A DNA stretch of 21,834 nt from a virus, in IMG/VR virus record IMGVR_UViG_3300049846_000730, positions 1 through 21,834 of that record. One strand, given 5' to 3'. This document shows, piece after piece, positions 3,564 through 18,986 of the stretch (the first letter of the stretch is position 1; every line of letters starts with the position of its first letter). Position numbers and translations under genes: made by a program. The notes under the pieces were generated by a model, which did not search any database, was not told where the DNA came from, and worked only from the letters and a program-made list of their open reading frames with translations.

Positions 3564-4258
3564 TATGCGCCCCCTCGCTCAGTAAATGAAAGCTGTGAAA
3601 GGAAATTCGTGTCCTGATCTGTTGAGTATAATTCTTTGTCGGCGTCGATGTCGTCTTTAATCGCTTGTAGATCCAAAATAAACTGCGGGTGAGTAGGGCA
3701 CTCAAGCCCTGGGAGGTTTCCGATAGTCATTGGCCCCGCCATCATCTTATCTATCAATGTGGACAGTCTCAGGAGCGCATTTTCGTAAGCCTGTTGCATT
3801 ACTAAACCAAGAATAAGCGGCTCAAGCACATCAGAATCGGTCTTGGCGAGATTGATTCGATCTCCGCCGATAACCTGGGCCTTTGTCTGACCCCAGAGGA
3901 TATTCCTTTTTCCTGACTTGGATTTTGAGATCGTATCGCCATCAATTGCTTGCTGTGGGATCGTATCCTCATTGCTTGGAAGCCTGCAAACAACGTGAGC
4001 ATAGTCCTCTAAGCCTTCGGGAATCGCAATTAAAGCCATGTCATTAACAGAGATTGGGCCGTAGTCTCCGGCGTCTGGTGCGACAGACATAGCCCCTACC
4101 TTCGCAACGATTTCGTGGTTGTCTGGAAATAAAAGGACCTTAACTCTGATCGAAGATTTGTTTGATGCGTACTCAATCTTTGTGATCTTTCCAAGACTCA
4201 CCCAAACTCTTCTGTCTTTCATTATTTCTCTAAGAGATTCTAAATCTGGCGGCATCAT
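3563..4258 (-). CDS. Baseplate spike protein (Mu gp45 / gpV-like)
   Basis: Residues about 18-95 look like the OB-fold of contractile tail spikes (VWVSLGKITKIEYASNKSSI, RVKVLLFPDNH, SVNDMALIAIPEGLEDYAHV). A short beta segment with GKRNILWGQTKAQVIGGDRI follows. After about residue 150 the sequence turns helical (LGLVMQQAYENALLRLSTLI) and ends in polar residues, so the long triple-stranded needle and the HxH iron site of Mu gp45-type tips are not evident. The spike may be blunt, or another protein may supply the tip. The gene lies between hub and wedge genes, with an ATGA overlap upstream and a one-base overlap with the next gene. Confidence 0.75.
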   Translation of the reverse strand: MMPPDLESLREIMKDRRVWVSLGKITKIEYASNKSSIRVKVLLFPDNHEIVAKVGAMSVAPDAGDYGPISVNDMALIAIPEGLEDYAHVVCRLPSNEDTIPQQAIDGDTISKSKSGKRNILWGQTKAQVIGGDRINLAKTDSDVLEPLILGLVMQQAYENALLRLSTLIDKMMAGPMTIGNLPGLECPTHPQFILDLQAIKDDIDADKELYSTDQDTNFLSQLSFTERGGA

Positions 4259-5697
4259 TTGAGTAACCTATTCTGAAGCTCAATAAAATTGACAAAATCA
4301 AGAGACATAGTAAAGCCCTGATCGTCCAGGTTGAACCTAACAGACTTCGTATAAAATACCATTGGCGTTTTTCCGTAGGAAGCAGCCAAAGCGTCTACAA
4401 TACCAATTGCGGTATTCGCCTCATATCCAACAGATTGCAAATATCTCTTACGATCTTCTATAGATGAGCTTCTAGCCATCGCAACCATGTCGGCTTGGCG
4501 AATCTCAATTCCTATCGGAGTCCCATTTCTTACTTTTAAAAGATTGTAATCAGTGCGCACATTATTTTTGTCGTCTTGAAATATTCGCATCTCTTTTGTT
4601 TCCATCGAACCGTCAATTTGTTGACGCCCAACTTCCTCAAAGATCCCCTCACCGATTTTAATTAGCTGTGGCTTGTTTTTTATGTTCGGAATCCTGAACG
4701 TCAAAAACGGAGCATCTTCTTCTTCATCTTTTTTTGCTCTTGGAGATCCAGAACTGACCGCAGTAGTAACACCATTTTTCACAGTGCCTTTTCCGTAAGA
4801 CTTCACTTCGTTTTTTGGTATTTTTATTCTCTCGCGAACAATACCAATATCTTTTGACCACTCTTCTGTTGCTTCCTCTGGGATCAATGCCTCAATTACT
4901 TGCTTTGATTCAATAGAAAGAGAAAGAACTTTTATGTTGAAGTTCTTTTGTCTTCCCAGCTTTCTTTTAAACTCAAGCTTTTTTAAGTTTCGTCCATATA
5001 TAAACTGAATCGCTTTATCTTTAGAGTAGAGAACTCGTGGCTTGCTGATGACTAATTTATCAAGCTCAATGTATGCAATAAGCCCCGCTCTACTAACCAA
5101 ATCCTGTATAACATCCCAATAAGTATCATCACGACGAACATTTTTTTGGCCTTCGAGCGATCCAAAATCAGGCGCAAATTGCGCAAGAGTTGGTAGTGTT
5201 TCATTTGATCTATTCTCCACTTTTAAGTCTGCTGTTGCCGGAAGTGCTGCTACAATATCTTTCAAAATCTGCTCTAGTGGAGTAGTTAATGGAATAGTGC
5301 TTCCTTTTGGATAAGGCGCATCTATCAGAAGAGCCGTAAAATCTCTGCACTCAAACTTCACAAATCTGTTTGTATCATCAAGCTCGATTGTATTCTCGTC
5401 AGCAAATCCCTGAAAGATTGTGTTTGATGGGCTTGGAATCAATTCGTTTGAAGTATCTTCCATGTGCGCAGTAACGCCAAGTGCTCTGATTGTTCTTGGA
5501 TCAAATGGGAAGTTTTTATAATCCAGTTCAAGAGAGCATGTGTCGGCCTGGGTGTAATCGTTAATATTCACCTCAAGACGTTTTGGTCTGCATTGAACAT
5601 GGTAAGTCTCTTGCAATTTTACGCTAGAGCCCTGCTTGTAGTCCTCAAAGACTATTCTCAAAGTGCAGACGGCTTTTGGGTAATAAAGAGAACTCAT
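4255..5697 (-). CDS. Baseplate hub protein (gpD / T4 gp27-like)
   Basis: The 480-residue protein fits the hub that joins tube to spike. Early strands (VEVNINDYTQADTCSLELDY-type pattern around residues 40-60; NRFVKFECRDFTALLIDAPY near 108-128) and the DTYWDVIQDLVSRAGLIAYI segment are typical of late control gpD/Mu gpP-like hubs. A charged linker with RAKKDEEEDAPF sits near two thirds of the length, and the end carries VRFNLDDQGFTMSLDFVNFI. Gene order (LysM protein, this gene, spike) supports the call. It is joined by ATGA overlaps to both neighbours. The fold assignment is by pattern, not by search. Confidence 0.82.
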   Translation of the reverse strand: MSSLYYPKAVCTLRIVFEDYKQGSSVKLQETYHVQCRPKRLEVNINDYTQADTCSLELDYKNFPFDPRTIRALGVTAHMEDTSNELIPSPSNTIFQGFADENTIELDDTNRFVKFECRDFTALLIDAPYPKGSTIPLTTPLEQILKDIVAALPATADLKVENRSNETLPTLAQFAPDFGSLEGQKNVRRDDTYWDVIQDLVSRAGLIAYIELDKLVISKPRVLYSKDKAIQFIYGRNLKKLEFKRKLGRQKNFNIKVLSLSIESKQVIEALIPEEATEEWSKDIGIVRERIKIPKNEVKSYGKGTVKNGVTTAVSSGSPRAKKDEEEDAPFLTFRIPNIKNKPQLIKIGEGIFEEVGRQQIDGSMETKEMRIFQDDKNNVRTDYNLLKVRNGTPIGIEIRQADMVAMARSSSIEDRKRYLQSVGYEANTAIGIVDALAASYGKTPMVFYTKSVRFNLDDQGFTMSLDFVNFIELQNRLLK

Positions 5698-11104: not shown

Positions 11105-11689
11105 TTATATTATAACATCAGTTCCAATATCGTATTCAACTTGAGTCTCAACAATTTTGAACTGTTCTTTTTCAAGTATGGCATCACAATTCACCAAAAC
11201 CACTATTTTTGTGCGCCATTCTTTTCTTTGTGATCCAGCCTCACTGTCATCAAAAGCAAAGGAAACTAGATTGTACCTTGCTATGATATTGTGATAATTC
11301 TCGAGCCGCAATGAAATACCGAGCGTTTCCATCTCGTCTCTTACGAATTGATCGTTAAATGCTCGATAAAATGACTCATACAGCCTATGACGCTCTGGCT
11401 TGCTTCCACTCCAAATGTCTAGCTGCATTCTCCACTCATAATCACCAACAACATACTTGACAGAAGACTTTACATCCTCGCCATCAATCTCTTCTATTGT
11501 CTTTTTTACTGTTTGCAGGTGCCTATGGATGACTGGCGGACCAGAAAATATCGACAATGCCGGATATTTTAGCGCAATATTTGGCTCCGGCCAGTCTTCC
11601 AAGACTTCCTGAAGTTCGGGCATCTTCTGTTTTAAGAAGAGCGCCAATCTTTTGACTACTTCTTTTGATGCCGAATCAGTTTCAGTCAC
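11105..11689 (-). CDS. Putative tail terminator protein
   Basis: A 194-residue mixed alpha/beta protein located between the gp10-like gene and the sheath gene, the usual place of the tail terminator that caps the finished tube and joins it to the head. The sequence has an N-terminal helix (EVVKRLALFLKQKMPELQEV), a strand-rich core (YEWRMQLDIWSGSKPERHRL) and SLRLENYHNIIARYNLVSFA, consistent with that fold, but no diagnostic motif is certain. Translation appears to start at GTG 11689, overlapping the end of the preceding gene by 8 bases; no better ATG was seen. Confidence 0.65.
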   Translation of the reverse strand: MTETDSASKEVVKRLALFLKQKMPELQEVLEDWPEPNIALKYPALSIFSGPPVIHRHLQTVKKTIEEIDGEDVKSSVKYVVGDYEWRMQLDIWSGSKPERHRLYESFYRAFNDQFVRDEMETLGISLRLENYHNIIARYNLVSFAFDDSEAGSQRKEWRTKIVVLVNCDAILEKEQFKIVETQVEYDIGTDVII

Positions 11690-12140
11690 TTAATTTGATC
11701 TCCTGACGAATGTTTTCTAAAATTGTTGGCAGCATCCCCTCTAATACTTTTCGGGGTTGCATTCCGTTCTGTGCGATCTTGTTTTGAGTGCCCTTAGCTA
11801 ACGCCCAGACCTCTGGTGAGTAGTTTGGAGGCTGGCTTGAGTCTTTCAATACACGCTTTGCCCAAGCCAATAGAGGAGCTATTGGCGGTGTAAACGGCCT
11901 AGAGCCTTCCTCAATGATTGCAGCGTGCGGAGCTGTATTCCCAAGCACTACAGATTGCTCATCTGCTGTGAAATTCCAAGACTGCGCATAAAGTCCGGTG
12001 TCCACTGGCGAGTTCTCGACAAGCCCTGAGATAGACTTCGCAACACCAGAGATAGTCCCTTTTCTTACTTGCTCAAGGGTCTTTCCTGGCATTTCCTGAA
12101 TCACTTTTGCGAAGTCGTTTAGCTTTATGGTTGTGGTCAT
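11682..12140 (-). CDS. HK97 gp10-like neck / tail completion protein
   Basis: The 152-residue sequence shows the HK97 gp10-like family signature: SPVDTGLYAQSW at 44-55 and NTAPHAAIIEEGSRPF at 68-83, with PPIAPLLAWAKRVL after it. These proteins sit at the head-tail interface and help complete or join the tail. The start codon overlaps the upstream stop as ATGA, and the end overlaps the next gene by 8 bases. The position between the stopper and the tail terminator agrees with the role. Confidence 0.85.
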   Translation of the reverse strand: MTTTIKLNDFAKVIQEMPGKTLEQVRKGTISGVAKSISGLVENSPVDTGLYAQSWNFTADEQSVVLGNTAPHAAIIEEGSRPFTPPIAPLLAWAKRVLKDSSQPPNYSPEVWALAKGTQNKIAQNGMQPRKVLEGMLPTILENIRQEIKLSD

Positions 12141-12589
12141 TTGATTACTTTTAGATGTCTTCTTTTTATTAATTTAGAAAGAGCTGGCACTCCATGAACT
12201 TGAGCAGCTCTTGCCCCAACAAATGCCCCAAAACCAGCTACAGATCCAGCTCCAAGCGTGAATGAATGTTTCAAAAATTCTTTTGCCCCAGAAGTTACAC
12301 TTTTTGTTCTGTCATACTCCCTAAGACCTTTGTAGGCCGAATATCCTTGTCCTGCAATGCCAGCCAAGGCTCCTGCAACACCAAGACCAAGTCCGGCAGC
12401 CGCAAATGGCGGCTTACTAACTCCGCTTTTTGAAATCGTAAGGGCAGCAGAACTCGCAAATCCACCTATTGCGCCAATTGCCGCCGTCTTTTTGTAATCA
12501 CCAGGAATATTTCTTCCGCCACTATTTGATGATTTCTCCCCTTTATCCCTAACAGGAATAATTCTTCCATTCTTGCGAATAAATCTCAT
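12137..12589 (-). CDS. Second Gly/Ala-rich membrane-like protein with NGRIIP motif
   Basis: The 150 residues begin RFIRKNGRIIPVR (2-14). A polar basic linker and three hydrophobic Gly/Ala-rich stretches (about 35-51, 61-82, 111-129) follow, then a strongly basic end LIKRRHLKVIK. The N-terminal motif matches that of the 221-residue protein encoded at 16800-17465, and the overall plan (motif, basic linker, glycine zipper-like hydrophobic segments, basic tail) is the same. No characterised family is recognised. The gene is joined by ATGA overlaps at both ends to connector genes, so it is co-translated with structural proteins. A packaged membrane-interacting protein is the leading inference. Confidence 0.72.
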   Translation of the reverse strand: MRFIRKNGRIIPVRDKGEKSSNSGGRNIPGDYKKTAAIGAIGGFASSAALTISKSGVSKPPFAAAGLGLGVAGALAGIAGQGYSAYKGLREYDRTKSVTSGAKEFLKHSFTLGAGSVAGFGAFVGARAAQVHGVPALSKLIKRRHLKVIK

Positions 12590-13008
12590 GAGTCGTATCT
12601 CCTCTGGTCACTAATTGGTCTAACTTGAATATCAAATTGCAAATATCTTTCTCTAACAGAGATGACAGTATAAAGCCTGCCATCAATTTTCAAAAATCTT
12701 TCTTGTCCTGGGCCGAGTGTTGTTGGCTCAAATGTTTCTCGTGGATAGCGTTGCTTATCAACCATCTTCAAAAGCAAATCGCCTTGCTTCACATTGCCAC
12801 CTTCAAGCGCACGAAAGTTTAAAGACAAATCCACTATATGAGGAGTGTTCACAAGAATCATCTCGGCGTCTTCGACAACGCCCTCGCCCACTTCGCCGCC
12901 AGACCACGTCCTGGTCACTATATAAACCTTTTTTAAGTCCGCCCCAATAGCATCTCTGATGCCTAAAATTGAATCTGAGCAGTCTTTTAAAGATTCAATT
13001 ATGCTCAT
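12586..13008 (-). CDS. Putative head-tail stopper / head closure protein
   Basis: A short N-terminal helix (SIIESLKDCSDSILGIRDAI) is followed by a beta-rich body (KVYIVTRTWSGGEVGEG; VDLSLNFRALEGGNVKQGDL; GRLYTVISVRERYLQFDIQV). This small beta-barrel type and its place between adaptor and gp10-like neck gene fit a head-closure (stopper) protein that plugs the portal channel. I chose ATG 13008, which forms an ATGA overlap with the upstream stop; an in-frame GTG at 13014 is possible. The 3' end overlaps the next gene by ATGA as well. The role is inferred. Confidence 0.6.
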   Translation of the reverse strand: MSIIESLKDCSDSILGIRDAIGADLKKVYIVTRTWSGGEVGEGVVEDAEMILVNTPHIVDLSLNFRALEGGNVKQGDLLLKMVDKQRYPRETFEPTTLGPGQERFLKIDGRLYTVISVRERYLQFDIQVRPISDQRRYDS

Positions 13009-13361
13009 ACGCACACGCTCACGTTAACGCCATTTCCATTCATCATTGGAATATCTAGTAACTGCGATAACAAACGGATAAGCCTCGAACGTTCTTTTCT
13101 AAGCCAGTAGATTTCATCTGGATTCAATTCGATCTCATCAACACGCTTTGCGGCGAGTCTACACGCAGCGCCCTCAAGCTTTTGATCAATCGCTGTTATC
13201 TTCTCAGTGAGTCCAATCACATTGGCTTCAAGTTCTGGAGTCAAATTTTTAAGTCTATCAGCCACCTGAGAATTGTAATTGGTAGATCCTTCGATAATAG
13301 ATTTCCCAGACCATCCAAGGTACATCACAATTGTCTGTTGAGTGGCGGCTGATAGTGCCAT
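13005..13361 (-). CDS. Putative head-to-tail adaptor protein
   Basis: This 118-residue, mostly helical protein starts MALSAATQQTIVMYLGW and has two long helical stretches (SQVADRLKNLTPELEANVIG onward, and DEIYWLRKERSRLIRLLSQL). Helical adaptors that dock under the portal are typically encoded right after the capsid gene block and before the stopper, as here. No family signature is certain, so the role is inferred from position and helical content. Translation starts behind AGGAG. Its TGA overlaps the ATG of the next gene (ATGA). Confidence 0.6.
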   Translation of the reverse strand: MALSAATQQTIVMYLGWSGKSIIEGSTNYNSQVADRLKNLTPELEANVIGLTEKITAIDQKLEGAACRLAAKRVDEIELNPDEIYWLRKERSRLIRLLSQLLDIPMMNGNGVNVSVCV

Positions 13362-13490
13362 TTATTTTCTCCTCATTGAAACTTCTTGAGCGGCTGGTTT
13401 TTTACCTTGCTTTGATTCTTTCTTTTCTGAATCTGGTTTTTTATCTGTCTTTTTCTTTGCGTCTGATTGTCTACGTCTTCCGGTTGCCAT
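13362..13490 (-). CDS. Very basic 42-residue protein
   Basis: This ORF fills an otherwise empty gap between two head genes. It has ATG at 13490 preceded by GGAGAG at good spacing, and its TAA abuts the ATG of the next gene, whose AGGAG site lies inside it. The product starts MATGRRRQSDAKKKTDKK and ends SMRRK, with 16 Lys/Arg and only 6 acidic residues in 42. It is probably disordered. No family is recognised. A charged accessory peptide bound to DNA or to the acidic scaffold would be a guess. Confidence 0.7.
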   Translation of the reverse strand: MATGRRRQSDAKKKTDKKPDSEKKESKQGKKPAAQEVSMRRK

Positions 13491-13512
13491 TATCTCTCCA
13501 AGTATTGAGAGC

Positions 13513-13530
13513 GGGGGGATTTCTCCCCCC
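13513..13530 (-). promoter_or_regulatory. Intergenic hairpin with GAAA loop after the decoration gene
   Basis: Minus-strand RNA GGGGGGA, GAAA, UCCCCCC forms a perfect 7-bp stem with the same tetraloop as the hairpin after the capsid gene. It begins six bases after the stop codon of the decoration gene. No uridine tract follows. Just downstream, CUCUC (13510-13506) could pair with GAGAG (13498-13494) and partly hide the ribosome binding site of the 42-residue gene that follows. Confidence 0.65.
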
Positions 13531-13536
13531 ACCTAA

Positions 13537-13917
13537 TTAGACTTTGTACATCTCTAATTGTACCACTGCTAAAGTAGGAACGCCTGTTCCGTTTTTAACA
13601 ACGTTTACAACAAGATCAGAACCCGCAGGAATTTCAAGCTCAACTTCAGGAGCGTGTTTCGCTACGTTCTTTACTAAAGCGCCTTCGTTAGCAGCTCTAG
13701 TATCAATCTCAGCCAACACAGCTCCGCTTGGAGCAGCTAACAATTGAACTTGTAAATAGTTTGTATTGTCAGCAGCTAAAGCAGCCTGGTTGATAAGACT
13801 CATTTTCTTCATGATCATTTTTTTACGTGCATGTAAACCAGGAAGCTCGATTGAAGCTGCCTGAGTACCTACATTTACCATCACTAGGTGAGGGTTATTT
13901 TCGTTTGACTTACTCAT
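13537..13917 (-). CDS. Probable capsid decoration/stabilisation protein
   Basis: A 126-residue, beta-rich protein with no signal peptide or membrane segment: VMVNVGTQAASIELPGLHAR near the N-terminus, NYLQVQLLAAPSGAVLAEID in the middle, and DLVVNVVKNGTGVPTLAVVQ near the C-terminus. I do not recognise a specific family. Decoration proteins are often encoded directly after the major capsid gene, and the AGAGGA site plus the flanking hairpins suggest strong expression, so decoration is the best inference. Alternatives are a head fibre or a capsid cement of another fold. It is followed by a second GAAA-loop hairpin (13513-13530). Confidence 0.65.
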   Translation of the reverse strand: MSKSNENNPHLVMVNVGTQAASIELPGLHARKKMIMKKMSLINQAALAADNTNYLQVQLLAAPSGAVLAEIDTRAANEGALVKNVAKHAPEVELEIPAGSDLVVNVVKNGTGVPTLAVVQLEMYKV

Positions 13918-13950
13918 TTTAATGTCCTCTTTTTAAATAGTTTTAATTTA

Positions 13951-13972
13951 TGGAGGCGGTTTCCCGCCCCCA
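13951..13972 (-). promoter_or_regulatory. Intergenic hairpin with GAAA loop after the capsid gene
   Basis: The minus-strand RNA reads UGGGGGCGG, GAAA, CCGCCUCCA. It forms nine base pairs (one G-U) closed by a GNRA-type tetraloop, starting five bases after the capsid stop codon. The downstream bases are AU-rich but lack a uridine run, so a strong intrinsic terminator is unlikely. A transcript-stabilising or 3'-end-protecting element is a reasonable inference. Confidence 0.65.
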
Positions 13973-13977
13973 TACAA

Positions 13978-14874
13978 TTAGGCATCAATGCTTGTAGCGA
14001 AAAGGTTACGGCAAATGCGCTTGTCATCTGCTGAAACTTTTGCGTGGAAAGCCTTCACACCGTAATACTGACCACCTGTGAATAGATGTTCTCTATGTAA
14101 CAAGTCGTAGTCTTGATCCATTTCAGGTTCCTCAGCGGTAATAATACCGTAAGGATCTGCCTTGATAATGAATGAGTAAAAGGATTTCTTGCCACCGATT
14201 GTTGCGCCAGCAGGCATGGTGTCCAATGTGAACAATGCCATACCTAACAAACGGCCCATGAAACCAGCAACGCCCCAGAAAGGATCGTTTGCATCTGCTT
14301 TCAAGAAGCCAGCGGTAGGATCTGTGATTAAATCCAAATAACAAAAAGAGTGCATGAAAATCGCAACGGATTGGTCATGCTTATCGCCGAAAGCGATAAT
14401 TTTACCTTTTGCAATGTTGGTGATCTTAGCCAAGTCTGTGTTAGCAGCGGCTACGAAACCATCAGAGTAATTGGATGCGGTGTTCATCTCAGTGATCAAA
14501 TCTTTGTCCACTTTTTCTGCGTGAACGCGAGCAATCTGATTTTGAACTTCGCCAAAGATTTCTTCGCGTCTTGCTGCGGACTTACGAAGAGCACGTCTTT
14601 TCACGCCAACAGCTTTTGCAACTTCTTTAACTGTGCATGAAAATGCGTCATCTTGTAACTTGTCCACAGATAGACCAGAATCTTCATCTGGCTCTTCTGC
14701 ATCACCAATTTTTTTGAAATATGGAAAGTTTACGGTTTCGCCGGGTGCCGCAGTAAGAGTGTTATCTCTTTTTGCGAATTGACCGACAACTAATTTTCTA
14801 TCGAAATAAGCCTGAACGTGTTGCGCCCAGACTTTGGGTTCAAATGCGAAATCTGCTGCTTTTGTAGCTCCCAT
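13978..14874 (-). CDS. Major capsid protein
   Basis: The 298-residue product is the likely HK97-fold shell subunit. Supporting features are its position after the scaffold, the N-terminal FEPKVWAQHVQAYFDRKLVV helix, and APGETVNFPYFKKIG (43-57), a pattern of the N-arm/E-loop region in this kind of coat protein. The rest is mixed alpha/beta, including the EEIFGEVQNQIARVHAEKVD spine-type helix and DPFWGVAGFMGRLLGMALF. The family match is by pattern, not search. A strong AAGGAG site precedes the ATG. Immediately after the stop codon there is a 9-bp hairpin with a GAAA loop (13951-13972), which may help set the high expression expected for a coat protein. Confidence 0.88.
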   Translation of the reverse strand: MGATKAADFAFEPKVWAQHVQAYFDRKLVVGQFAKRDNTLTAAPGETVNFPYFKKIGDAEEPDEDSGLSVDKLQDDAFSCTVKEVAKAVGVKRRALRKSAARREEIFGEVQNQIARVHAEKVDKDLITEMNTASNYSDGFVAAANTDLAKITNIAKGKIIAFGDKHDQSVAIFMHSFCYLDLITDPTAGFLKADANDPFWGVAGFMGRLLGMALFTLDTMPAGATIGGKKSFYSFIIKADPYGIITAEEPEMDQDYDLLHREHLFTGGQYYGVKAFHAKVSADDKRICRNLFATSIDA

Positions 14875-14893
14875 TTTTATGTCTCCTTATGCC

Positions 14894-15697
14894 TTATACG
14901 GCTTTTCTTTTTGGATGTGCTTGAGCAAACAATTCGTCGTATAGCTTACGGTTTTTGGTAAAAAGTTCTGATCTTTCAGTAATACCCATTTGTTTGAATT
15001 TCTCCAAAGTAACTGAGGTATTCTTTTTATCTGGATTGATATTGTGAGAGCCATCAACGCTCGTCCTGTTTTCAGATCCACCATCTGCGGAGCCCATGTT
15101 CCGAGATGCTCTTTTCGCTAATTTGGCTGCATCGGCAAAATCTTCCTCTGACAGCTCGTCGCCCTCTTCAAGAGATGCGAGTTTTTTCTTAACGAAAAAT
15201 TCAAAGAACTCTCTATCCTGCTTACCTACGCTATGCTCTACTGCTTGCTCTAAAATAATTGTACTGACTGCAAGCTCTTCATTCTGTTGCTTCAAACGCT
15301 GTGCGATTGTTTCGGCGTCTTCTTCCTCATCGCCACCCAACATTTGCTTGAACTTACTCACTAGCTCTGCATTTTTAACACGCTCATCTTTAGCTCTTGT
15401 TCTATGCTTGCCGTTTTCTTTTCTTAGCTTTTGAATGTAAGCTTTTGTTTTTGCGTCCAGTTTCGACTCGTCCAGCGAATCGTCTTCTTCGTCTTCTTCG
15501 TCATCGCCACCAGTGCTAGACTTTTTATTTTTTGTACCTGCATCGTCTTCTTCATTATCATCTGCGAGAGACTCTAATGCTGCTTCGTATGCTGATTTTG
15601 CTGCTGCATGGGCAGACTTCAAGTCTGCGTTTTCGGGGTCTGCTGCTAATTTTTTTGCTGCTTCTTCTAGTGCTGCTTTTAATTGCTTAATAGTCAT
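14894..15697 (-). CDS. Capsid scaffolding protein
   Basis: Scaffolds template prohead assembly and are then lost. The 267 residues look like one: an Ala/Lys-rich N-terminal helix (1-45), an extremely acidic linker (about 47-78, mainly Asp/Glu), and the segment KAYIQKLRKENGKHRTRAK (85-103) that resembles phage scaffolds. More charged helices (about 104-200) and a basic C-terminus ending HPKRKAV follow, the latter fitting a capsid-binding tail. It has no protease motif, and no prohead protease gene is recognisable anywhere in the window. A GGGAGGAG ribosome binding site precedes the ATG. The gene lies directly before the major capsid gene, which is the standard place. Assignment rests on composition and position. 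Confidence 0.85.
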   Translation of the reverse strand: MTIKQLKAALEEAAKKLAADPENADLKSAHAAAKSAYEAALESLADDNEEDDAGTKNKKSSTGGDDEEDEEDDSLDESKLDAKTKAYIQKLRKENGKHRTRAKDERVKNAELVSKFKQMLGGDEEEDAETIAQRLKQQNEELAVSTIILEQAVEHSVGKQDREFFEFFVKKKLASLEEGDELSEEDFADAAKLAKRASRNMGSADGGSENRTSVDGSHNINPDKKNTSVTLEKFKQMGITERSELFTKNRKLYDELFAQAHPKRKAV

Positions 15698-15730
15698 TTT
15701 GAGGCTCCTCCCTTGATCCAGTCAAGCGGT

Positions 15731-16564
15731 TTAGTTATTCCAAGTTTCTCTATACGGGACCATTATAGATCGGTCATTGGGCCGATCCGGTGGCACCATG
15801 TAGATTCGTTTCTTACCATTCCAAGTGTATTCAAAGGGCTCATCGATGTCCACAATAAGATTTTTGCGTGCCGCATACTTAGAATCATCGCCCGTTCTTG
15901 AATCCATTGGATGAATAAGGGTCTTTTGGAGATCGGGGAGAAATTGGGCTTGAGTCTCCTGCATCGTCTTTTGCTTTCCTAGGTTATAAACGCCGTGAAG
16001 TTCAGTTCTGGCGATTTGGGTAAGCTTCCACTCCTCGCCAATGAAAAACTGGCCAAGTCGCTGAGTGACCTGACTTAGTGAGATTTCCTCAATCGCTGCA
16101 TTTGTGAGAGCATCTGCAAGCTGGCTTCTGATCTGCTCTGAGTACGCATCAAGGCTTGATTGATACTTGCTCACCAAAAGATTATTAACATCCTGGGCAA
16201 TCAAAGCCACATTAAGATTAATGGGTGTCACCGCACCTGTGAACATTTTGTCAAATGTCCTTATTTCCGAGAGCAGGTCTTCGATCCCTAGCATTGCGGC
16301 CCTCTCTGCGCCTGGGGTCATCCCTTCAAGTAGTGAGCGATTCATTGCAGATATTGCGCCGTCTACCTGTGCAAGTACGCCTCTTAACTGCTGAGCTGTG
16401 AAAGTATCAGCACGAGTGCTATCCAGCCGATCACGTAGATCGCTACGAATTTCACGGTATCTTTTGAGCAGCTTACGAGCTTCAGTTTCTTCAAGCTTTA
16501 GCACCCCTTGAATGTGATTTTCTACAATTCCAGAACTGTCTACCGTTTCAAAAAAATCAGGCAT
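15731..16564 (-). CDS. Head morphogenesis protein (SPP1 gp7 / Mu gpF family)
   Basis: This minor capsid protein acts in head assembly, and in SPP1 the homologue travels with the DNA. The C-terminal third carries the family pattern: a helix QIARTELHGVYNLGKQKTM near 183-201 followed by LIHPMDSRTGDDSKYA around 216-231 and a final beta-rich segment. The N-terminal two thirds is helical. I chose ATG 16564 (MPDFFETV) because GAGGA sits five bases upstream; an in-frame ATG at 16579 has no such site. The gene overlaps the preceding one by 8 bases and precedes the scaffold, the usual order portal, gpF/gp7, scaffold, capsid. Confidence 0.85.
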   Translation of the reverse strand: MPDFFETVDSSGIVENHIQGVLKLEETEARKLLKRYREIRSDLRDRLDSTRADTFTAQQLRGVLAQVDGAISAMNRSLLEGMTPGAERAAMLGIEDLLSEIRTFDKMFTGAVTPINLNVALIAQDVNNLLVSKYQSSLDAYSEQIRSQLADALTNAAIEEISLSQVTQRLGQFFIGEEWKLTQIARTELHGVYNLGKQKTMQETQAQFLPDLQKTLIHPMDSRTGDDSKYAARKNLIVDIDEPFEYTWNGKKRIYMVPPDRPNDRSIMVPYRETWNN

Positions 16565-16799
16565 TTTCGTCCTCGACATAGACTACATTACCAGACTTCC
16601 TAAGCCTTCCGAAAGTATGAATAACAAACTGTGGCCTATCTTTTGATGATGCCCTGCCCGTGTATGCCCTGGTCATAATAATGACATCAGACACATAGAT
16701 CGTGCTCATCTTAGACTTTCCAAAGCTTGCGATGGCCCATGGAGTAGAGCCGCTGATTCGATCTCTGCTTATATAGATTTCCCAGTGCCCAACTTCCAT
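16557..16799 (-). CDS. Hypothetical protein, 80 aa, between portal and head morphogenesis genes
   Basis: A small, probably beta-rich protein (HWEIYISRDRIS; STIYVSDVIIMTRAY; RPQFVIHTFGRLRKSGNVVY) with no recognisable family. Its ATG directly follows the TAA of the upstream gene and has no good ribosome binding site, so translation is probably coupled. Its stop overlaps the start region of the gpF-like gene, and the ribosome binding site of that gene lies inside this one. Tight embedding in the head operon supports a real gene. Function unknown. Confidence 0.65.
   Translation of the reverse strand: MEVGHWEIYISRDRISGSTPWAIASFGKSKMSTIYVSDVIIMTRAYTGRASSKDRPQFVIHTFGRLRKSGNVVYVEDENA
16570..16574 (-). 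promoter_or_regulatory. Ribosome binding site deciding the gpF-like start
   Basis: GAGGA lies five bases upstream of ATG 16562-16564 and inside the 3' end of the preceding gene. The alternative in-frame ATG at 16577-16579 lies on the far side of this motif and has no purine-rich site of its own, so the shorter product is preferred. Confidence 0.6.
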
Positions 16800-17465
16800 T
16801 TATTTTACAAATCTTGAGAACTTGGAGAGATTTTTAATTGCGTTTTTGAACCCGGAGAGTCCGCTATAGTATCCAAGCCCTACAGAAGCACCCACAATGC
16901 CACCAGCAACGGCATTTGCTGTTGTTTCTGCTGTTCCAGGCTTCTTGCCCTTAACGCCCTCATAAAGATTGCTAAGACCACCAGTAACCAGCGCACCACC
17001 AGCAATCCTACCGAATGCCCTAACCTTTTGCCTGTTTTGAAACATGGCATTTGATGCAATACCGGCTCTGAACGCGTCTCTTTTGAACTTATTGAGTAGC
17101 TCTTTTTGAGCTGGCTTAAATACGAACTCGCTTGCAGTATCTGTGCCAAATCCTAGATCAGGCTGCCATGGAGTTAAACTTTTACTGGATGCCTTGGTAG
17201 CTGCTTTTCTGCCTTTTTCTATGATGACCCTTGCGCCTTTTGCTGCCGCCCTAGAAATATCCTCAAGTCTCGCAGAAGCAAGAACCATTTTAGAAGCAAA
17301 GCGACCGGCAAACAGTGCCGTCCCAACTCCTGCAGCAACTAAACCAGCACCCACTATGGCTGTCTTAACCTGCGGGTCAATGCCTTTAGCCGGAGTCTTA
17401 GGTGATCCGCCCTTTCGAATCGGGATTATGCGCCCATTTATGCGTCTGAAGACCACGTCACCCAT
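16800..17465 (-). CDS. Gly/Ala-rich membrane-like virion-operon protein with NGRIIP motif
   Basis: I do not recognise a characterised family. The 221 residues start with FRRINGRIIPIRK (6-18) and a short basic Pro/Lys linker. A hydrophobic glycine/alanine segment follows (about 36-54), then a basic helical middle, and two further hydrophobic glycine-rich stretches (about 153-164 and 185-206) before a basic tail. No signal peptide is seen. The N-terminal motif recurs in the protein encoded at 12137-12589, with 9 of 13 positions identical. The gene abuts the portal stop and the next start. Its location among head genes and its membrane-active look suggest an internal or ejected virion protein. 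That is inference; a membrane-associated morphogenesis factor is also possible. Confidence 0.75.
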   Translation of the reverse strand: MGDVVFRRINGRIIPIRKGGSPKTPAKGIDPQVKTAIVGAGLVAAGVGTALFAGRFASKMVLASARLEDISRAAAKGARVIIEKGRKAATKASSKSLTPWQPDLGFGTDTASEFVFKPAQKELLNKFKRDAFRAGIASNAMFQNRQKVRAFGRIAGGALVTGGLSNLYEGVKGKKPGTAETTANAVAGGIVGASVGLGYYSGLSGFKNAIKNLSKFSRFVK

Positions 17466-18986
17466 TTAAAACCCCCCGAAAGGATTTATAACTGGTTGCG
17501 TCGCAACTTTCTGCAGCTCAGTCTCAATATCTTCAACCCCAAACTCTTTCACGCCTGCAAGCCATCTCGCAGCCCATTCGCGAGAGAATATATTGGCACT
17601 AGTCGCAGCCGTCGCAACTGACAACATCTCTTTCATGTCAGTCATCGTAAGAGGAAAAACGGGGGGCCATGATGCCTGAACGTCTAAGCTCTTTGGCGCA
17701 TATCCTGCAGGGATTGTGATAGGAGATTCGCCGTATTTTTCTTCGGTGATGAGTACAGCTAAAGCCATTTTTACAAGCAAGGCTTTGATCCCAAGCTCGA
17801 TAAACGGTCTGATCTCATTTAAAAGCTCTACAAACGGGCCATGGAGAACCTCTAAGGCCCTACCTGACTGTGCATGTGCAACCATCTTCTCAGGGTCCAT
17901 CATAACGACCCTAGAGATGTCTTGAACGCCTAATCTCACCTTATCTCGAAGCTCACTAGCAACCTTTACGCCATCAAGGTTAGACTCTAAGAAATTAGCC
18001 TCACCCTCTCTGCCTAGATTCCATGCCTTCTGAGAAGACCTGATAAGCTCGCTAAGCTCTTCCTCATCCATGTTTTTGATCGTTAGCTGAGGATCTTGGT
18101 TATATGAAACAGCCTCGCTTGATTGAGACAGGTTGTAATTAACTTCGTCGATAAAATCCATGAGATCAGTCAATAGGCCATATCCGTCAGGTGAATGCTT
18201 ATCCTCGCAGGTACGGAACCAGTGGCCTTGTACAAAGCCCAGTTCATGGTCAACCCTAGAAACTACCTGAAACTCAGGCGGAGAGGTCGCCCCAGGCTTG
18301 TATTCTGGATTGTCAAATAGGATGTCTGTCATGGTTCCAAGAATCATCTTGTACCATTTCTTTTTAGGATTCTTTTGAGCATCAAGATCAGTTTGATCCT
18401 CATAAACGTAGCGGACTTCAACACTGATAAGCTCTCCCGCAGGAGAAAACTCTGGATAGCAATATTTTGACTTAAACCATTCGATTTTGATTGCATTTTC
18501 TACAATGTAAAATCGTACGAAAGCTGATCCTGTCGCTACAGTTCTTTTGATTGGCTCAAGAAGCCTTGATCTTAGCATCGAAGAGTTAATCAGCACCTTT
18601 AAGAACTCTGTGGTGTCTGGATCTTCGTCAACTTTCATCGTTGGAAAGTTTTTATCCCCAACTAGCTTAGAAGCCACTCTACTAGAAAGCACTTTTCCGT
18701 AAGAATAAATGATACGAGGCTTTCTTTTTCTGACCGCGATGTAGTCATCCTGGCAAGAAGCATTGTCCCAGTCTTCAAGATGATCGTACTGAGTATTTTC
18801 GTAGTATTTATCAAGTTGGTGCAGTAACGGGTCACGATAGAAAAGAACAGACTGGTCATAGCTTCCGTCCATTCGTATGCCCAGGTTGTTTTTTGCTAAT
18901 TGTGCAAATCTTGATTTAGCTCGTGAGTAAAATTTGCCATCCCTAACTTTACCCGCATATCGTTGATCAAAATCAAATTCAGGCAT
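17466..18986 (-). CDS. Portal protein (SPP1 gp6-like)
   Basis: The portal forms the dodecameric ring at one capsid vertex through which DNA enters and leaves. The 506-residue length, the position directly after terL and before a gpF-type head protein, and the character of the sequence (IIYSYGKVLSSRVASKLVGD; RTVATGSAFVRFYIVENAIK; HWFRTCEDKHSPDGYGLLTD; DFIDEVNYNLSQSSEAV) fit the SPP1 gp6-type portal family. The long C-terminal helical part includes the VVMMDPEKMVAHAQSGRALE segment typical of portal stem and wing regions. A GGAG site six bases before the ATG fixes the start. The stop codon abuts the next ATG (TAAATG), so the downstream gene is probably translationally coupled. Confidence 0.9.
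   Translation of the reverse strand: MPEFDFDQRYAGKVRDGKFYSRAKSRFAQLAKNNLGIRMDGSYDQSVLFYRDPLLHQLDKYYENTQYDHLEDWDNASCQDDYIAVRKRKPRIIYSYGKVLSSRVASKLVGDKNFPTMKVDEDPDTTEFLKVLINSSMLRSRLLEPIKRTVATGSAFVRFYIVENAIKIEWFKSKYCYPEFSPAGELISVEVRYVYEDQTDLDAQKNPKKKWYKMILGTMTDILFDNPEYKPGATSPPEFQVVSRVDHELGFVQGHWFRTCEDKHSPDGYGLLTDLMDFIDEVNYNLSQSSEAVSYNQDPQLTIKNMDEEELSELIRSSQKAWNLGREGEANFLESNLDGVKVASELRDKVRLGVQDISRVVMMDPEKMVAHAQSGRALEVLHGPFVELLNEIRPFIELGIKALLVKMALAVLITEEKYGESPITIPAGYAPKSLDVQASWPPVFPLTMTDMKEMLSVATAATSANIFSREWAARWLAGVKEFGVEDIETELQKVATQPVINPFGGF

Follow-up and report, generated by a model that had tools for sequence, protein, structure and literature searches.

A modular terminal NGRIIP tag on basic proteins encoded in the head-gene block of an uncultured myophage lineage, a probable capsid address

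Results

The window analyzed here is a 21.8-kb fragment (21,834 nucleotides; IMG/VR record IMGVR_UViG_3300049846_000730) of a contractile-tailed phage, and it encodes two proteins, P1 and P2, that begin with a short segment around the core NGRIIP. This segment is a modular, protein-level tag, which occurs at the N- or C-terminal end of many unrelated, strongly basic proteins and is encoded only in the head-gene block. It probably serves as a capsid address that loads its bearers into the head. The original prediction, made from the window sequence, had proposed a docking or packaging signal, and this idea has strong indirect support from about 62 families of tagged protein bodies, the use of either protein end, the confinement to head genes, and a highly basic cargo with enzymes of types that phage heads are known or predicted to contain.

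Two tagged proteins in the window

The open reading frames (ORFs) of P1 and P2 are both present on the minus strand, with predicted gene starts, and carry the motif as described. Features of the two proteins are:

16800..17465, minus strand: P1, a tagged, basic, helical protein of 221 amino acids; hidden Markov model (HMM) family of 66 tagged proteins
17415..17450, minus strand: P1 terminal tag, residues 6-17 (FRRINGRIIPIR); match to the position-specific scoring matrix (PSSM) of the lineage; predicted beta-hairpin
12137..12589, minus strand: P2, a tagged accessory protein of 150 amino acids in the gap between the connector and Neck1 genes; body family of 3-4 members
12548..12583, minus strand: P2 terminal tag, residues 3-14 (FIRKNGRIIPVR); match to the lineage PSSM; predicted hairpin

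P1 starts with MGDVV-FRRINGRIIPIRK and P2 with MR-FIRKNGRIIPVRD, and 9 of 13 N-terminal positions are identical, as had been reported. A BLASTP comparison yielded a significant alignment that was limited to the first ~38 residues (E = 3e-4). The remainders of the two proteins do differ: after masking of the tag, the bodies fall into the two separate HMM families listed above (66 versus 3-4 lineage proteins), and a simple paralogy of the whole proteins was thus absent. The tag is found at the N-termini of these proteins, as had been described, but many other proteins carry it and C-termini are used as well.

P1 is nearly universal in the lineage and is mostly encoded directly upstream of MuF. 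Neither P1 nor P2 had a Pfam match, a PHROG match better than E = 0.05, or a tblastn match in INPHARED, and a peptide-pattern method retrieved no relative of full-length P1 from IMG/VR. Fold searches with P1 gave no match at E <= 0.001; there were weak matches to long helices, two of them labelled "internal virion protein".

Specificity of the motif

The motif has 12 residues, [FY]-x-R-x-x-G-R-[IV]-[IV]-P-[IV]-[RK]. IMG/VR (2.9 million viral contigs) was searched with degenerate DNA patterns that represent nothing but the motif, and nearly all of the returned contigs also encode homologues of the portal, major capsid protein (MCP), MuF, scaffold or TerL of the window. Motif matches are thus almost confined to one uncultured myophage lineage, to which the window belongs. 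One pattern was also scanned against 257 Gb of cellular genomes and yielded 7 matches, two of which stem from the same phage lineage.

A 15-column PSSM built from strict motif matches retrieved 178 matches in called ORFs; at an equal threshold, there were none in reversed proteins and none with most of the shuffled-column matrices. In a six-frame search, 96 matches in the real records compared with 0 in codon-shuffled records. Hence, the tag marks this lineage with very little background, and it is practically certain that it is real and under selection. The consensus tag had no match in INPHARED, and none of the papers searched prints the motif in the context of a phage genome.

Position of the tag in proteins and genomes

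The 178 matches in called ORFs comprised 138 N-terminal, 37 C-terminal and 3 other cases. N-terminal tags lie mostly 2-14 residues after the start, C-terminal tags mostly 2-18 residues before the stop. In a non-redundant set of 247 tagged proteins from across the lineage, 213 tags are N-terminal and 38 C-terminal, and a few proteins are tagged at both ends (four proteins in the first set).

Twenty phage records were obtained essentially whole, and up to 9 tags were found per record. All tags are encoded on the strand of the head genes and are located in four gaps, i.e., TerL-portal, portal-MuF, MCP-connector and connector-Neck1. In 12 near-full records (32-53 kb), 59 of 59 tags are located between TerL and Neck1, a region that makes up 30.5% of the genome, and none in tail or other genes. 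An enrichment beside portal and neck genes, proposed earlier as a check of the packaging idea, was thus found, and it concerns the head gaps only. To guard against circularity, the lineage was resampled by its capsid protein instead of the motif, with many of the contigs overlapping the motif-found set. In this sample, a tag was present between portal and MuF in 45 of the 49 loci that hold both genes and in the connector-Neck1 gap in 29 of 66, and gaps of less than about 300 bases carry no tag.

The hydrophobic stretches of many bodies would also fit late membrane or lysis proteins, or superinfection-exclusion proteins, that share a signal for targeting to the host membrane. This explanation is very improbable, as no tag lies outside the head block, likely soluble enzymes are tagged, tags also occur at C-termini, and there are few clear transmembrane segments. 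The earlier description of P1 and P2 as "membrane-like" proved too strong for the tagged set: a 19-residue window with a mean hydropathy of >=1.6 exists in only 22% of the proteins, and one of >=1.2 in 73%.

The main genes of the window are all on the minus strand, and several of the following names were assigned by position. The order is TerS, TerL, portal, P1, an ORF of 80 amino acids, MuF-like protein, probable scaffold, MCP, possible decoration protein, two connector proteins, P2, Neck1 and tail terminator, followed by sheath, tube, chaperone, tape measure and baseplate. None of the genes downstream of Neck1 had a tag by the lineage PSSM. The genes that surround P1 and P2 are:

17466..18986, minus strand: portal protein (SPP1 gp6-like; PF05133 E = 8e-14, phrog_64); 5' flank of the main hot spot of tagged genes
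16557..16799, minus strand: untagged 80-amino-acid ORF between P1 and MuF; without family match and without tag by PSSM
15731..16579, minus strand: MuF-like head morphogenesis protein (phrog_2468 E = 7e-6; Phage_Mu_F below cut-off); lineage-conserved; 3' flank of the hot spot
14894..15697, minus strand: probable scaffold between MuF and MCP; charged, low-complexity composition; lineage-conserved
13978..14874, minus strand: MCP (phrog_544 E = 3e-34)
12586..13014, minus strand: head-completion/connector protein, by position and lineage conservation; 5' flank of the second hot spot
11682..12140, minus strand: Neck1/tail-completion protein (phrog_5 E = 2e-8)

The C-terminal end of the 80-amino-acid ORF (FVIHTFGRLRKSGNVVYVEDENA) might form a hairpin that looks unrelated to the tag. 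Some arrangements recur elsewhere in the lineage. A small, hydrophobic and basic protein of 85-107 amino acids with a C-terminal tag is often encoded immediately before a gene that is tagged at its N-terminus, which places the two tags back to back across the junction (L026:4451-4774 and 4778-5293, L027:4146-4421, L028:609-893, L031:2609-2866, L062:5779-6066). A family of ~170 amino acids with the core ST[FY]P-x-[FYW]-x-x-x-x-G[FI] is tagged at both ends in some phages and has one clear tag in others (L006:1286, L084:7169-7708, L028:1444-2028, L031:1771-2295); its member in L084 has no Pfam family. In five phages (L172, L186, L153, L148, L174), the connector-Neck1 gap holds large, acidic, untagged fibre- or baseplate-like genes where others hold tagged genes.

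Tagged proteins and their charge

The tag-masked bodies of the 247 proteins form about 62 HMM families. The largest cluster (127) holds Gly/Ala-rich helical proteins, and a few bodies match glycine-zipper models. At least 11 tagged proteins are GNAT acetyltransferases, one (L107) contains the ADP-ribosyltransferase domain ART-PolyVal (E = 1.6e-17), HExxH metallopeptidase-like proteins recur, and kinase-like proteins are tagged as well. That many helical bodies share one large cluster would be expected if P1, P2 and the rest had descended from one gene with a better-conserved start. However, such a simple paralogy is hardly credible, because GNAT, ADP-ribosyltransferase (ART), HExxH and kinase-like proteins all carry the same tag, C-termini bear it too, the bodies of P1 and P2 belong to different families, and a P1 orthologue can bear a different N-terminus.

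The medians of length and net charge of the tagged proteins are 173 amino acids and +25, respectively, and there is no net-negative protein among the 247. For ORFs of at least 100 amino acids in the same gaps, the charge per residue after removal of the tag was +0.134 in tagged ones versus 0.0 in untagged ones (p = 8e-20); the untagged ORFs of the whole records had -0.009. The few basic untagged ORFs in the gaps mostly proved to have degenerate tags or the second motif described below. As tagged genes adjoin the MCP and neck genes, the tag might anchor accessory decoration proteins on the outside, at the surface of capsid or neck. This is improbable, as the bodies are strongly basic and include enzymes of cytosolic type (GNAT, ART), whereas the untagged ORFs of the same gaps are neutral to acidic, and several of them look like exterior or fibre proteins.

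The tag as a protein-level module

The full range of synonymous codons is used at every tag position examined. Because the tag codons vary synonymously, selection acts on the protein, and an element at the level of the nucleic acid was rejected. In one phage (L048), two adjacent genes have unlike bodies, but the DNA of their tags is 98% identical, which shows that the module is shuffled between genes.

The AlphaFold2 model of P1 (50 homologues; predicted local distance difference test score, pLDDT, of 86) contains a hairpin with strands at residues 4-9 and 12-17 and a turn at Asn10-Gly11, followed by a linker and long helices (31-95, 118-172, 178-202). The model of P2 was poor (pLDDT 49) and confident only in the hairpin, with strands at residues 2-6 and 9-13. 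The tag is therefore predicted to be a beta-hairpin.

Such a hairpin might also be a functional element of the cargo, e.g., a basic DNA-binding or a membrane-inserting one, that acts inside the head or during ejection. The tag itself is basic and amphipathic (FRRIRGRIIPIR), and many bodies are Gly/Ala-rich and helical, a few of them matching glycine-zipper models. Nevertheless, the G-R-x-x-P-I geometry is almost constant in enzymes and helical proteins alike, and this, together with the use of either end, the confinement to the head block and the replacement of the tag by another motif in sister phages, points to recognition rather than to bulk binding of DNA or lipid. We regard a functional cargo element as unlikely.

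Sister phages and a second motif

Three sister phages (L126, L140, L180) lack the NGRIIP tag, but an orthologue of P1 occupies the corresponding slot; an HMM of P1 without the tag matched the orthologues of L140 and L126 with E = 1e-15 to 2e-18. The N-terminus of the sister orthologue has a different motif, G-S-R-G-G-x-I-I-x-x-T-x-x-G-x-P-[IV]-Y, which replaces the NGRIIP tag and is written GEGSRGG[KH]IIGHTKSGKPIY. The sites of this second motif are:

L126:1767-2555 and 4111-4689, and L140:4270-4974; also L188-L216

In L126, the TerL-portal gap also encodes a Peptidase_M91-like protein (E = 9e-4, which does not reach the Pfam cut-off) that bears a variant of this motif. The second motif may be another head-address module, and the literature search did not find it in print at all. 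A total of 29 stretches in other phages, most of them larger, contain it, often internally to proteins; examples are a site that follows a head maturation protease domain (L211) and one in the gene before portal (L208).

Relatives and host

A cultured member of the lineage was not found, and the best matches to isolates had identities of ~29.5% (MCP) and ~24% (portal). The lineage MCP is present in one metagenome-assembled genome (MAG) of Chitinivibrionales (contig L062, 45 kb) and in one contig of a Pacearchaeota MAG (L061, 7.2 kb); a search of 167 further genomes from the phylum of the Chitinivibrionales MAG did not find it. An assignment of the host from these MAGs was rejected, as mis-binned free phage is likely.

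Discussion

The closest parallel is the capsid-targeting sequence (CTS) of phage T4, of which 10-19 N-terminal residues suffice for packaging, with a cargo of unlike basic proteins, i.e., IPI, IPII, IPIII and the ADP-ribosyltransferase Alt; it has been suggested that phages can replace their cargo with new proteins by way of the CTS (PMC9026906). As in T4, a short terminal peptide is common to small, unlike basic proteins of one phage, and the cargo includes an ADP-ribosyltransferase. In contrast to the CTS, the tag has what appears to be a consensus of its own and a predicted hairpin, is used at the N- or C-terminus, and occurs on far more cargo families in a capsid lineage without similarity to T4. 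It also is apparently not cleaved: Peptidase_S78 and S49 were not found in 11 near-full records, and because no such prohead protease was found, the tag probably stays on. By analogy, the tag may work like a CTS, but it is not classed as a member, and we infer packaging in this lineage.

Polyvalent and MuF effectors offer a second comparison. Iyer et al. 2017 (PMC5512222) predicted packaging and injection for GNAT, ART and metallopeptidase domains whose genes adjoin portal and MuF; the term "targeting sequence" does not occur in their article. Tagged GNAT, ART-PolyVal and HExxH proteins are likewise encoded in the head block. They differ in that the tagged proteins are mostly small and single-domain and are united by a terminal tag, and that MuF is a separate, untagged gene.

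Ejection proteins of podoviruses (T7 gp14-16, P22 gp7/16/20) are variable, helix-rich and encoded near portal genes in the head region (PMC8954989). The tagged proteins resemble them in variability, helix content and proximity to portal, but P1 has no significant fold match and the tail of the lineage is contractile. Short terminal peptides also direct diverse enzymes into the HK97-fold shell of encapsulins; this likeness concerns the principle of a short terminal peptide on diverse enzymes, in a different biology.

We propose that the tag would fold autonomously as a short beta-hairpin and serve as a capsid address. While the prohead is assembled, this hairpin would bind a conserved component of the inner head (scaffold, portal, MuF or the inner face of MCP), and its bearer would be built into the head, where the basic bodies would sit among the packaged DNA. 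Upon infection, the head contents would exit with the DNA via portal and tail, and the delivered enzymes (GNAT, ADP-ribosyltransferase, metallopeptidases) could act on host targets. The near-universal, helical P1 would have a more structural or DNA-delivery role. The original prediction had suggested a pore for DNA entry; this is not the general function, since many of the tagged proteins resemble soluble enzymes. For P1 itself, with its long glycine-rich helices, near-universal presence and location beside MuF, a role as an ejection protein or DNA pore is possible.

Several points weigh against a capsid address. We infer packaging from gene position, charge and cargo type. The likeness of tags within a phage (7.69/12) hardly exceeds that between phages (7.52/12; p = 0.03), so that there is little, marginal sign of a fine co-adaptation of tags with a phage-specific receptor; with this signal only, a phage-specific co-evolution of tags was rejected. 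In addition, the large helical cluster might be united partly by its biased composition, and a few basic gap proteins bear only degenerate tags.

If the tag loads the head, hundreds of unannotated phage proteins could be recognized from 12 residues as internal and probably injected, which would yield a clean candidate set of early effectors for host takeover and anti-defence. It would also be a second, apparently protease-free answer to the problem solved in T4, usable at either end of a protein, and could readily be employed to load phage capsids with proteins of choice. More tentatively, phages may possess several interchangeable capsid-address hairpins, with NGRIIP loading fast-changing injected effectors without proteolysis, and the second tag, GGxIIGxTxxGxPIY, being used by the sister phages for the P1 slot and a metallopeptidase-like cargo and by unrelated phages in head proteins. 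If this were true, reading such tags would allow injected effectors to be listed from the genome sequence.

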